From the IMG/VR virus record IMGVR_UViG_3300045107_000874, positions 1-23,753 of that record: 23,753 nucleotides of DNA; one strand, 5' to 3'. The translations under genes were made by a program, and so were the position numbers. The notes beneath the pieces were generated by a model. That model was not told the DNA's origin. It did no database searches and worked only from the letters and a program-made list of their open reading frames with translations. This stretch comes from a virus. Positions 1-15,976 of this stretch are shown here, one piece after another (positions within the stretch are counted from its first letter, which is position 1; the number at the start of each line of letters is the position of its first letter).

Positions 1-1050
1 ATGAATGGACCACTTCCTTGTACCAAGCTGAGTCGGCGCAGGAAGCGCCCGTTTCAGCAGGTGCAGGCTGTTGTATACGACTCACCACAGCCCCAAATTC
101 AGCACTTGGAGCTGCACCGCGCCCGCGAGCTGGCCAGTGTGTGGCTGAACGTCGGCCGGGCCCGCATGCACAGCGATGCCACCCTGGCGCTGCGTCGCGG
201 AATTACCGAACGGTTTTTCTGGTGGTGCGAATCCAATCGATACCAAGCGATCGATGCCGATGTGATCCGGGCCTTCCTTATCTACCTTGCCGAGGGGCCG
301 GCTGACGGGAGCCCTCGGTGGCCGAACTTTCCGAAAGCCCAGCAGAAGGTGACGAGCGGCACGGTGGCGACCTACCACCGGCATTTGCGCGCTATGTTCC
401 GATGGATGGAGTCCGAGGACCATGTGCCGGTTTCGCCGATGGCCCGGGTGCAGGCACCGATAGACCGTCCGGATCAGATCGACCCGTTTACAACGCTGGA
501 TATTCAGCGGCTGATGGACGCGGCGCGGAAAAGTACCTACCCCGAGCGCGATCTGGCGATACTGCACTTTCTTCTGGACACTGGCGTACGTGCGAGCGAA
601 CTGTGTGCGATGGTGGCCTCAGACATCGATTTTGATAACTGCAAGGCAAGGATTTTCGGCAAGGGCGGGAAGGTGCGTACTGTGTTTTTCCACTCGCGTA
701 CCAAAGAGAAGCTGTTTGCATACATCCGCATCGAGCTGCGCCGTGCGGATGAGCCGCTTTGGGCCGGAGAGCAGGGAGCGCTTCAGAGGAACGGCCTGCA
801 GCAGTTGCTGGAACGTATCGGGAAGCGGGCGGGTGTGACGAAGGTGAATCCGCATCGGTTTCGGCATACGTTCGCCCTGTGGTTTCTGCGGGCGGATGGT
901 GACCGGGGGACTCTGCAGGAGCTGCTGGGGCACACGGATATCCGGATGGTCCAGCGTTATGTGAATCTGGCCCAGGTGGACATTGAGCGCGGGCACCGGA
1001 AATGCAGTCCTGTGGGTGCGTTTTACGAACAAAAGCGCAGGGCACGTTGA
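1..1050 (+). CDS. int: Tyrosine recombinase (phage integrase)
   Basis: A 349-residue site-specific recombinase that would integrate and excise the phage by strand exchange through a covalent phosphotyrosine. Residues about 40-150 form the core-binding (SAM-like) DNA-binding domain. Residues about 165-335 form the catalytic domain, with Arg197 in DTGVRASE, Lys222/Lys224 in GKGGKVR, His286 and Arg289 in HRFRH, His311 in LLGHTD and the nucleophile Tyr320 in MVQRYVNL, so the full R-K-H-R-H-Y set is present. Its length is typical of XerC/D-like phage integrases. The ATG is the first base of the window, so an upstream start cannot be excluded. It is co-directional with the late genes, and its TGA overlaps a promoter-like -35 box. 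Confidence 0.95.
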   Translation: MNGPLPCTKLSRRRKRPFQQVQAVVYDSPQPQIQHLELHRARELASVWLNVGRARMHSDATLALRRGITERFFWWCESNRYQAIDADVIRAFLIYLAEGPADGSPRWPNFPKAQQKVTSGTVATYHRHLRAMFRWMESEDHVPVSPMARVQAPIDRPDQIDPFTTLDIQRLMDAARKSTYPERDLAILHFLLDTGVRASELCAMVASDIDFDNCKARIFGKGGKVRTVFFHSRTKEKLFAYIRIELRRADEPLWAGEQGALQRNGLQQLLERIGKRAGVTKVNPHRFRHTFALWFLRADGDRGTLQELLGHTDIRMVQRYVNLAQVDIERGHRKCSPVGAFYEQKRRAR

Positions 1051-12510: not shown

Positions 12511-13943
12511 GCATTCCGCTTGATGAACTTGTGGTTAGATTGAAACCGGCCGGCGGCCAGGCAGTGGCTGCCAGCCTTGGTGCTATCAAGACGCAGGTGA
12601 GCGGTTTGGGTTCGATGGCGATGCAGGCCACGATGGGTATGGCCCGTGGCGTGAGCATGGCGATGGGTGCGATGGCGCGTTACGGAGTTGCTGCCGGCGG
12701 CGTGCTGACCGGCGCTGCTGTGGGTTTCTTGGCGGCGAGCATGCACAAGGCTGCCGAGTTCGACAGTTTGAAGATGTCCCTCGGTGCGATCTCCGGGTCG
12801 GCTGAGAGTACGCGGAAGCAGTTGGAGCGGCTGCGGGAAGTGGCAAAGCTCCCGGGCCTTGGGTTTGAGGAGGCGATACGCGGGTCTGTGCGGCTGCAGA
12901 CCGCCGGTTTCAGTGCGAGTGGTGCGGAGAAGGCGATTATGGCTTTCGGCAATGCGCTGGCCATGAGCGGAGGGGGCAGGCAGGAGCTTGAAGGCACGAT
13001 TTACGCGTTGGGACAGATTGCGAGTAAGGGGCAGGTTTCCGCCGAAGAGATCAACCAGCTGGCGGAGCGTGTGTTTATGATCCGCCCGGCGATGCTGGCG
13101 GCGTTCGGGACGGCGAACACCGAGCTGATACAGCGGATGGGGATTACGGCTGCCGAGTTCATCCCTGCGGTGGTGGCGCAGCTGAACACGCTGCCCAAGG
13201 TGGCCGGTGGGGTGAAGAACAGCTATGAGAACATGGCCGATTCGATCAACGCCTCGATGGTGACGATTGGAACGAGCCTGAACAAAGCTGCACTTCCTGT
13301 GATTGAGAAGCTGGCGGAGACGTTGGACCGGATGGGTACGAACGGCGAACTTGACGCCATTGCCAAGGGAATTACGAGCGTGGTGATGCCTGCTTTCAAC
13401 GGGCTGATGGCTGCCTTGAAGGACGTTCAAAAAGTCGGGTTCATACCGTGGCTGGCCCGCATTGCCGACGGCTTTTTTCAACTGGCACAACCGCTCGCAT
13501 GGGTATATGCCGGCATTATGGCCCTCACCAAGAATTACCCCCAAGCGGTTATGGCAGGGGTTGCGGCTGCAGGAATGGGGTTGATGCGCCAAAAGGCGCT
13601 GGAGCAGATGGCGTACCTGCAGGTTGAAGAGTCGAAGAGTTGGATTGCCAATGCACAGGAAAGTGCATCGAAGAAGAAGGCGGCCGAGATTGCAGCCACG
13701 AAGCCCAACCAGGTACCGGAGCCGATGCTGAAGGCGATGCCGGATGTGACAGGCAACCTTGGATTGGGCAGGGTGAAGGACAGCGTGCTTGCCGGGATTG
13801 AGCGGAACACGCGGCGAAGCGCCGACGCGCTGGAGGAGCTGCGTGTGCAGCTTCTGGGCGGCGGCGGAAGAATGGGCAACGCGATGAGCAGCACCGAGGC
13901 GGAGATTGCGCTGGCCAGGGCATTAGGGGCTGGGATTGGCTAA
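12507..13943 (+). CDS. Tail tape measure protein
   Basis: A 478-residue protein that sets tail length and is ejected during infection. Residues about 75-260 carry the tape-measure N-terminal domain (AAEFDSLKMSLGAISGSAES, then GKG-type helix EINQLAERVFMIRPAM). Hydrophobic Ala/Gly/Met-rich segments occur at about 40-75 and again near 325-365. It is short for this family; at roughly 1.5 angstrom per residue the tail would be near 70 nm. The ATG overlaps the G-T stop. Its 3' end overlaps a convergent cassette gene by 21 nt. Confidence 0.9.
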   Translation: MSIPLDELVVRLKPAGGQAVAASLGAIKTQVSGLGSMAMQATMGMARGVSMAMGAMARYGVAAGGVLTGAAVGFLAASMHKAAEFDSLKMSLGAISGSAESTRKQLERLREVAKLPGLGFEEAIRGSVRLQTAGFSASGAEKAIMAFGNALAMSGGGRQELEGTIYALGQIASKGQVSAEEINQLAERVFMIRPAMLAAFGTANTELIQRMGITAAEFIPAVVAQLNTLPKVAGGVKNSYENMADSINASMVTIGTSLNKAALPVIEKLAETLDRMGTNGELDAIAKGITSVVMPAFNGLMAALKDVQKVGFIPWLARIADGFFQLAQPLAWVYAGIMALTKNYPQAVMAGVAAAGMGLMRQKALEQMAYLQVEESKSWIANAQESASKKKAAEIAATKPNQVPEPMLKAMPDVTGNLGLGRVKDSVLAGIERNTRRSADALEELRVQLLGGGGRMGNAMSSTEAEIALARALGAGIG

Positions 13944-14450
13944 TACGGGGGCCACGTTGTAGATGGTCTCTGATGATGTTTGCCACAACCAGCGCCCATC
14001 CCGAGACTTGAATCTCACCCAACGCGAGTTGGGGTGAAGTGCAAACCAAAGGTTGTTTATTGTCTTTGCGACCTGGTACTGCTGTTCGATTGGAGAGTTT
14101 ATGAAGTAGTCGAGCACTGTGACATCGAGGGACTCCGGGTCTTCAGGGGAGAGTTCGATTTTTGCAACAGCGGCAACATACATGTTGCGGGAAAGCAGGG
14201 CCTGCTGCATGGACTTCAGGCGGCCCTGTGGCGATTCTTCGGTGTCGTTGGTGTAAGCAGCTGTTCGTCCGTCTGCTGGTTCTGCAGTGCGGTAGCTGGA
14301 GGATGAGTTGCATGAGTTCAGAATGACGGTTAGGAGCAGGATTGGGACTATCAGAAAGAAGCTGCAGCAACCCGCAGCGCCTCCGAACCCTGCGTTGAAG
14401 GCGCTTGAAAAACTGATACCGGTGTTTTGGCGTGGCTGTTGCTGAAACAT
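13923..14450 (-). CDS. Membrane-anchored or lipoprotein-like protein, unknown function
   Basis: A 175-residue last gene of the reversed cassette. Residues 28-46 form a strong hydrophobic segment (CCSFFLIVPILLLTVILNS) followed by Cys47 in LNSC, which could be a lipobox, although the 27-residue N-region is long. A Ser-rich linker leads to a soluble domain (about 76-170) with helices and Trp-rich strands (RWVRFKSRDGRWLWQ). The protein would sit at the cytoplasmic membrane. No Shine-Dalgarno site precedes ATG 14450. The start lies 37 nt after the neighbouring gene; a longer reading to 14609 would overlap it heavily. Family not recognised. Confidence 0.7.
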   Translation of the reverse strand: MFQQQPRQNTGISFSSAFNAGFGGAAGCCSFFLIVPILLLTVILNSCNSSSSYRTAEPADGRTAAYTNDTEESPQGRLKSMQQALLSRNMYVAAVAKIELSPEDPESLDVTVLDYFINSPIEQQYQVAKTINNLWFALHPNSRWVRFKSRDGRWLWQTSSETIYNVAPVLANPSP

Positions 14451-14487
14451 TCGACCGAGTTGGTAGGCTGTGGGAATAGGAGTTTGG

Positions 14488-15030
14488 CTAGGGTGCGTGA
14501 GGATGGGACTGAGACAGCTTTCGTTTTGTCTCTGCGATTTCCTCTTCGATGTTGCGGATTTCGGAGATCGCGTTCTTTTCGTTTGTATCCATTTCGGGCG
14601 TGCGCCCACCTATTTCTATGGCCTTGCGGGCGTTGGACAGAACTGTTTGCATGGATGCCAGACGTCTTTCTTGAGAGCGCAGTATCTCGCGGTTCATTTC
14701 GGGGTTGCCGTAGATGATCTGCTTGTTAAAGGCGTCCAACTGCTTTTGGTTTTCGGTGCCCATTGTGAAGCCCGGCCCCGGCATGACGCGGCTGACGCTG
14801 TTGTTGAGGCGTGCCTGAGTTACCTGGTTGTAGGTGAAGGCTGCACCGCAGACGATGATGACGACGGCGATGATGATGGGGAGTGTTTTGGGTTTGGCTG
14901 GTGCTGGATTGGGGTGGTGCACTTGCGGGAACTGGGTTGCGTAGGCGTGGCCGCAGGATGGGCAGAACCCGGCACCGGTGGGCGCGGTCTGTCGGCAGTT
15001 TGGGCAGGACTTGTAGAGTTGGGTTGTCAT
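14488..15030 (-). CDS. Zinc-ribbon single-pass membrane protein with coiled coil
   Basis: A 180-residue protein. Residues 9-26 carry a zinc ribbon (Cys9, Cys12, Cys23, Cys26; CPNC and CPSC), a Pro-rich linker follows, and residues 50-66 are one transmembrane helix (LPIIIAVVIIVCGAAF). The rest is extracytoplasmic and largely helical, with a coiled coil at about 140-175 (NIEEEIAETKRKLSQ). With a zinc ribbon inside and coiled coil outside it could act as a sensor or envelope modifier; the function is unknown. GGAGG lies 6 nt before ATG 15030. Confidence 0.75.
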   Translation of the reverse strand: MTTQLYKSCPNCRQTAPTGAGFCPSCGHAYATQFPQVHHPNPAPAKPKTLPIIIAVVIIVCGAAFTYNQVTQARLNNSVSRVMPGPGFTMGTENQKQLDAFNKQIIYGNPEMNREILRSQERRLASMQTVLSNARKAIEIGGRTPEMDTNEKNAISEIRNIEEEIAETKRKLSQSHPHAP

Positions 15031-15079: not shown

Positions 15080-15364
15080 TCAGGATTGGTATTGGGCATC
15101 CCGTTTAGCGATGGATAGCACTGCTACGGTGTGGGACTTGAAGGTGTAGAGAACGTAGTACTTTGAGTCCGTGTAAGGGTCGTAATAGTCGTAAGACCAT
15201 ACGCCTTCAACGTCTGTTTGAAGTCCGCTTTCGGGGGTCCGTGCGATGACAAATTCCACAGCCAAACGCAGTTCGTCCGGGTGCATTCCTGTTTTTGCAA
15301 ATTCGGCAATGCACTCATCTGCTACGTGGGACCACTGGACGTTATATGGAGTTGGGTTATGCAG
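15080..15364 (-). CDS. RelE/ParE-like toxin candidate with CTG start
   Basis: The frame runs 94 residues from CTG 15364. The N-terminal YNVQWSHVADECIAEF matches the first strand-helix of the RelE/ParE superfamily, and the C-terminal EGVWSYDYYDPY with YYVLYTFKSHTVAVLSIAKR matches its terminal beta sheet. RelE-type members cleave mRNA on the ribosome, ParE-type inhibit gyrase; which applies here is unknown. No ATG, GTG or TTG is available in frame except ATG 15286, which would remove the first strand. CTG has AGGAG 7 nt upstream and overlaps the antitoxin-like gene's stop by 8 nt, indicating translational coupling. A competing short frame (15124-15318) has no such similarity. Confidence 0.68.
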   Translation of the reverse strand: MHNPTPYNVQWSHVADECIAEFAKTGMHPDELRLAVEFVIARTPESGLQTDVEGVWSYDYYDPYTDSKYYVLYTFKSHTVAVLSIAKRDAQYQS

Positions 15365-15899
15365 CGAGAAACTCCTTGGCTGCCTGGCTTACTTTGAGAG
15401 CTTCTTGGGTGAGTTGTGCAGACGGCTCGGACTTGGTAACGCGGAGAGATTCAAACGGAATGGTCTCGCCTGTCCTTGCCGCCTGCCAGCCCAGCTTCCT
15501 GTGCGAAAGCTCGCTGATATCTTTGCCCGACAGGGGTCGGCATTCGTCGAGAACCTCATCGACGGTCGCGATCTCTTCACCGGTGAACCGAGACAGATCG
15601 GCAGGGCGAGCCGCAACAAAGCGATGCTGTGGAAGCCCGAAGTGGACACGCTCGACCATATAGAGCGCTCCGTTTCTCTGCATCGCCTTCAGTATCCTGT
15701 CGATGCCTGTGGGGCAAGGCCCGTGCGGCTGCTTGACGTATGTGTGTTCCGTGAGGGTGTGGCCGTCACGCAGGTACGCAGCGACGTCCGAGAAGAACAG
15801 AATCTTGTTAAGTTTGACCGCCCCAAACCGGGGGTCTCCGTCACTACGGTTGCAGATGTAGATTATCAGTTCCTGAAGCTTTTCGTTGGTTTTTGCCAT
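15357..15899 (-). CDS. Panacea/SocA-like (DUF4065) antitoxin
   Basis: A 180-residue protein with the Panacea (DUF4065) domain over about residues 5-125: LQELIIYICNRS, AVKLNKILFFSDVAAYLR, a Thr/Tyr segment (LTEHTYVKQPHGPCP) and GIDRILKAMQRNG. Panacea domains neutralise diverse toxins encoded beside them, and SocA acts as a proteolytic adaptor. Here it is the first gene of the cassette and overlaps a RelE/ParE-like gene, giving antitoxin-then-toxin order. AGAAGG lies upstream of ATG 15899, and a good promoter lies 48 nt before it. Base use seems more even than in its neighbours, suggesting separate origin. Confidence 0.85.
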   Translation of the reverse strand: MAKTNEKLQELIIYICNRSDGDPRFGAVKLNKILFFSDVAAYLRDGHTLTEHTYVKQPHGPCPTGIDRILKAMQRNGALYMVERVHFGLPQHRFVAARPADLSRFTGEEIATVDEVLDECRPLSGKDISELSHRKLGWQAARTGETIPFESLRVTKSEPSAQLTQEALKVSQAAKEFLAA

Positions 15900-15947: not shown

Positions 15948-15976
15948 ATTATCAATGGTTTCCGTGAGTTTGTGAA
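15948..15976 (-). promoter_or_regulatory. Promoter for the reversed cassette
   Basis: Read on the - strand, TTCACA (15976-15971), a 17-base spacer and GATAAT (15953-15948) form a near-consensus sigma70 promoter. It is placed 48 nt upstream of the Panacea gene. It would give prophage-state expression independent of late + strand transcription. Confidence 0.65.

Follow-up and report, generated by a model that had tools for sequence, protein, structure and literature searches.

A Panacea antitoxin gene and an overlapping RelE/ParE-like frame with a proposed CTG start in a temperate phage

Introduction

A small open frame overlaps the end of a Panacea-domain antitoxin gene in the window, as we call the whole stretch of 23,753 nucleotides analysed here (positions 1 to 23,753 of IMG/VR virus record IMGVR_UViG_3300045107_000874). 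This locus raises the question of where translation of the small frame begins and whether its product is a toxin paired with the Panacea protein. Our preferred reading, to which we assign a probability of roughly 0.6, is a type II-like toxin-antitoxin operon, a moron pair of a temperate phage, composed of a Panacea antitoxin and a 94-residue RelE/ParE-fold toxin started at CTG.

Results

Phage setting and antitoxin gene

The window opens with an integrase gene (1-1050, plus strand), followed by terminase, portal, head, connector and tape-measure genes. The location of the integrase near the terminase region indicates that the phage is temperate, and the terminase is nearest to those of Thermobifida (49%) and Streptomyces (46%) phages. 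In the interval from the tape-measure gene to the following tail-region gene, the pair and two further frames are found on the minus strand:

15948..15976, minus strand: promoter-like TTCACA-17-GATAAT upstream of panA (promoter scan, 1 found against 1.0 expected)
15357..15899, minus strand: panA, 180 aa from an ATG, predicted Panacea-domain antitoxin of the stand-alone type (PF13274 match)
15080..15364, minus strand: toxin frame, 94 aa from CTG, predicted RelE/ParE fold (profile and AF2 model)
14488..15030, minus strand: gene for a zinc ribbon and a likely membrane helix (UPF0547/zinc-ribbon matches of 1e-5, below the curated cut-off)
13923..14609, minus strand: frame with a likely membrane segment and no match in the family search

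The G+C content of the pair's stretch is 54-56%, compared with about 58-66% in most of the remaining window. As judged from this and from the position between tail genes, the pair resembles an accessory cassette carried by a temperate phage. The zinc-ribbon gene, whose ATG is preceded by GGAGG at 6 nt, probably belongs to the same cassette, and the frame at 13923..14609 possibly does.

The assignment of panA as a Panacea antitoxin in the initial annotation is upheld by a match to PF13274 (SocA_Panacea) over residues 30-139, with an E-value of 7.4e-14 and 53.1 bits against a curated cut-off of 25.7. A further match is phrog_1281 (6e-11), and relatives with 28-45% identity occur in phages and many bacterial phyla. 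The promoter scan near panA yielded nothing above chance. One phage Panacea protein, 41% identical to that of the window, is followed by another small frame that is not evidently RelE-like (L010:3001-3900, plus strand), which is consistent with partner exchange.

Start region of the toxin frame

The toxin frame is +1 relative to panA and open from stop to stop (15388 to 15080, minus strand). According to the codon list of this frame, no ATG, GTG or TTG occurs upstream of ATG 15286. The relevant elements, all on the minus strand, are:

15372..15377, minus strand: AAGGAG, Shine-Dalgarno-like, 7-nt spacer to the CTG (direct reading, duplex energy)
15362..15364, minus strand: CTG, proposed start and sole near-cognate start upstream of strand 1 (codon list)
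15357..15364, minus strand: CTGCATAA, the 8 nt in which the start of the toxin overlaps the stop of the antitoxin (TAA of panA, 15359-15357)
15332..15343, minus strand: coding sequence for beta strand 1 (residues 8-11 of the toxin), upstream of ATG 15286 (DSSP on AF2 model)
15284..15286, minus strand: ATG 15286, the start to be expected from a gene finder, rejected as main start (without Shine-Dalgarno match)

The spacing of 7 nt between the Shine-Dalgarno sequence and CTG 15364, and the overlap of 8 nt with the antitoxin stop, had already been given correctly in the initial annotation. The duplex energy at the CTG site (-8.0) lies in the top 1.4% of minus-strand positions; Shine-Dalgarno-like matches of at least 5 bases with proper spacing have a background rate of 1.8% of these positions. 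ATG 15286 lies 71 nt beyond the antitoxin stop, and no Shine-Dalgarno match was found there.

Predicted fold

AF2 was run on the 94-residue frame with an alignment of 24 family members. The resulting model (pLDDT 90.7, pTM 0.80) has a complete RelE/ParE fold, with b-a-a-b-b-b topology and an antiparallel sheet. The top structure matches are M. tuberculosis RelE2 (Z 11.9), RelE1 (11.8), ParE (11.1) and YoeB (9.7), and chains of the RelE/ParE type (RelE, ParE, YoeB, HigB) fill nearly all top rows at Z 8-12. Foldseek leads to the same assignment with a probability of 1.00, and the best profile match among PDB sequences is YoeB, aligned end to end (E 0.016). A model from the single sequence reached a pLDDT of just 52 with meaningless fold matches and was discarded in favour of the alignment-based one.

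According to DSSP on the AF2 model, strand 1 spans residues 8-11 and helix 1 spans residues 13-23, while ATG 15286 corresponds to residue 27. Both elements thus precede Met 27, in agreement with the earlier proposal that the fold is complete only from CTG 15364. Solved RelE/ParE toxins align with their own residue 1 or 2, approximately, to model residues 5-7. Residues 1-10 have a mean pLDDT of 84, and residues 11-20 reach 96. By sequence alone, the N-terminal 26 residues add 1.4 bits, a gain equalled by about 10 of 200 shuffles; the case for this stretch therefore rests on structure and on the start positions of relatives.

Toxin family and pairing with Panacea

A tblastn search of phage and plasmid records with the toxin gave nothing useful, and since directly related toxins were absent from these records, relatives were reached via Panacea. 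The resulting set comprises 7 viral and 80 genome loci, most of which carry a RelE/ParE-like frame directly behind Panacea. These toxins split into a longer HigB-2-like subfamily (E 8e-5) and a shorter one, to which the window's toxin belongs; an hhalign comparison between the two was not significant (probability 1.7). A profile of 23 short members, built with the window left out, scores the window frame at 30.0 bits, which shows that the frame belongs to a real protein family. No family covering the short-subfamily toxin was found in Pfam, NCBIfam or PADLOC. The window frame is matched by neither PF05016 (ParE_toxin) nor PF06296 (RelE), and ParE_toxin matches two of the 24 members with a best E-value of 0.057. 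Genome searches by pattern with the single toxin sequence gave no confirmed hit, and IMG/VR yielded no close relative of the window with Panacea, the toxin or the next tail gene as queries.

For a search independent of the antitoxin, about 1,500 genomes from several phyla were scanned with a profile of the short toxin that contained no Panacea, seeds being left out of the counts. Panacea accompanies all 11 new matches with E-values up to 3e-5, either directly upstream (9; L101, L102, L104-L108, L111 and L122, with the Panacea piece of L107 truncated where the contig ends) or fused into one chain (2; L110 and L112). It was found beside none of the 7 weaker matches. The downstream frame is hence conserved with the Panacea gene, so that the pairing on which the initial annotation had staked its proposal is borne out in other genomes. 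The locus is an adjacent, overlapping and conserved two-gene unit, as in type II systems.

In the two single-chain cases, Panacea and the short toxin share one open frame of 355 (L110:1423-2487, minus strand) and 321 residues (L112:751-1713, plus strand). Both genomes belong to one Actinomycetota order, and their toxin parts are 61% identical. They are regarded here as natural antitoxin-toxin fusions, from which an internal start could still free the toxin.

At another locus (L101:1492-1800, plus strand) an in-frame TAG interrupts the toxin midway while Panacea is intact and the close relative L102 is whole; this looks like toxin decay. The longer subfamily is represented by L091, L047, L061 and about 50 further loci, mostly in Bacteroidota, with well-conserved Panacea and HigB-2-like pairs that Pfam RelE matches weakly.

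Start positions and start codons of relatives

Homologous toxins start between -22 and +31 of the Panacea stop (-19 to +31 in 22 short-subfamily relatives, -22 in L122). The distance from the start to a conserved Asp is 25-37 residues in the 22 relatives; for the window it is 30 residues from the CTG and 4 from ATG 15286. One relative, L039, has an ATG at exactly the offset of the window's CTG (-7). Homologues starting at the position of ATG 15286, an outcome that would have spoken against the CTG, were looked for and not encountered. A toxin start at the CTG position rather than at ATG 15286 is consequently well supported.

The starts of the 24 members comprise 16 ATG, 4 GTG, 1 TTG and 1 GTG or ATG; the remaining two, the window and L111, have nothing canonical. 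L111 (1453-1800, plus strand) encodes a short-subfamily toxin behind Panacea without ATG, GTG or TTG before strand 1, and its best candidate start is an ATC at +9 with AGGA 6 nt upstream. No convincing non-canonical start was found in the longer subfamily, where 52 of 56 starts were canonical by script; the other four are one fragment and three cases in which a Met codon lies beyond the scanned range. The longest Shine-Dalgarno match of all members, AAGGAG, is shared by the window (CTG) and L024 (TTG). These two cases hint at compensation for weak start codons.

Use of the CTG codon

Going by the model, the window toxin must start at CTG or, barring a frameshift, could not make the full fold. 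Active initiation at CTG 15364 is likely, as judged from its position and the Shine-Dalgarno sequence. CUG initiation exists in bacteria; it accounts for 0.024% of starts, with an output of 0.86% of that of AUG (PMC11497404), and two AUG-to-CUG switches were counted in 61,358 (PMC5622118). Since CUG is this rare and no relative carries CTG, the codon is a rarity here and not inherited by the family. A non-AUG start is therefore no feature of the family, though L111 also lacks a canonical one. Among the toxin-antitoxin papers covered by our literature search, none with a CUG start was found.

The same figures bear on the possibility that a former ATG, GTG or TTG at 15364 was lost by a point change to CTG, leaving a nearly silenced, dying toxin beside a retained antitoxin. 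A codon with about 1% of the efficiency of AUG (PMC11497404) would have this effect, in all relatives but one this region holds a canonical start, which in L039 is an ATG at the identical offset, and decay is known in the family from the in-frame TAG of L101. However, the remainder of the window frame is uninterrupted, agrees with the family profile and retains a six-base Shine-Dalgarno sequence at good spacing, and L111 is a second member without a canonical start. Start-codon loss is an alternative to be taken seriously, albeit an unlikely one.

A sequencing or assembly error at one base, with ATG as the true codon and an ordinary pair, is improbable. The window is a single IMG/VR-type virus record of which a second copy was not found, but the long open frames over the contig suggest a clean consensus, and single-base errors in assembled consensus are rare.

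Still less credence is given to a +1 programmed frameshift, in which slippage at TTT-C close to the 3' end of panA would produce an antitoxin-toxin fusion. The toxin frame is indeed +1 to panA, AAGGAG adjoins TTTCTC and in-frame fusions occur in Actinomycetota (L110, L112). However, no stop and no clearly slow codon lies behind the slip site, the spacing is unlike that of prfB, and the relatives have independent toxin starts. That the 68-residue form from ATG 15286 is the real product is equally hard to credit, since this first canonical start has no Shine-Dalgarno sequence, would cost the protein strand 1 and helix 1, and has no counterpart at that position in any relative.

Discussion

For the preferred reading, a Panacea and RelE/ParE-fold operon with a CTG start, the following course of events is proposed. 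Ribosomes ending panA would stop at the TAA with AAGGAG and the CTG just behind, and the same ribosomes would begin translation, or resume it, at CTG 15364 with fMet. Little toxin would be made, and only after the antitoxin. Panacea would presumably bind and block the toxin. Loss of the antitoxin or a sensed trigger, perhaps superinfection, might then free the toxin, so that growth would stop. A role in superinfection or lysogen maintenance is plausible for the phage-borne pair.

RelE/ParE folds include mRNases as well as gyrase poisons (PMC10440598). With regard to the target, the alignment of the 24 members has no residue conserved past column I85; the window has KR at residues 87-88. RelE and YoeB nucleases carry basic or His/Tyr catalytic residues at the end of the last strand. 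Because this end lacks a conserved residue in the family, a nuclease mode of the RelE/YoeB kind is not assured, and mRNA cleavage is no likelier than a ParE-like or other target.

The usual partners of RelE/ParE toxins are RelB, ParD, YefM or HigA, not Panacea. RelE1 and RelE2 of M. tuberculosis, ParE, YoeB and HigB2 share the b-a-a-b-b-b fold over nearly the whole length of the model (Z 9-12), with identities of 5-25% to the window toxin in the structural alignments. As in the window, the HigB-2-like pairs (L091, L047, L061) have a Panacea gene followed by an overlapping toxin, but this toxin is longer (about 110-125 aa) and forms a separate subfamily.

PanAT systems of bacteria and phages likewise consist of neighbouring genes for a Panacea antitoxin and a small toxin. 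Their toxin types include ParE-domain partners, and RelE/ParE is among the commonest folds of the wider network (PMC8832971, PMC10440598). In contrast, the window's partner matches no Pfam, NCBIfam or PADLOC family, and its frame has a proposed CTG start. The SocA-SocB system of Caulobacter crescentus is related through the antitoxin, as SocA has the same Panacea/SocA domain (PF13274) as panA; SocA acts as proteolytic adaptor for the replication inhibitor SocB (PMC8832971), whereas the partner in the window has a predicted RelE/ParE fold.

The suggestion that this is a less described pair is a fair one: the toxin falls outside all families of the three libraries, but Panacea loci with ParE-domain toxins have already been reported (PMC8832971). 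As far as the libraries show, the short subfamily is new, as are the in-frame fusions in one Actinomycetota order and a member that, barring a frameshift, must start at CTG. For the subfamily this refers to the absence of Pfam, NCBIfam and PADLOC models; the PanAT literature lists 88 toxin clusters, which may include it. A broader and tentative reading is an uncatalogued Panacea-partnered RelE/ParE subfamily, in which some members may adjust toxin output through very weak starts tied to the stop of the antitoxin gene (CTG in the window and possibly ATC in L111) and other lineages carry antitoxin and toxin as a single fused chain.

Pipelines that accept only ATG, GTG and TTG would either shorten this toxin to 68 residues or overlook it, so that the antitoxin would look like an orphan. 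The fused forms offer a direct route to how Panacea holds a RelE/ParE toxin. As a compact test case, the phage locus itself may show whether very inefficient CUG initiation, through coupling to the stop of the antitoxin, serves a phage to hold a toxin at a safe level.
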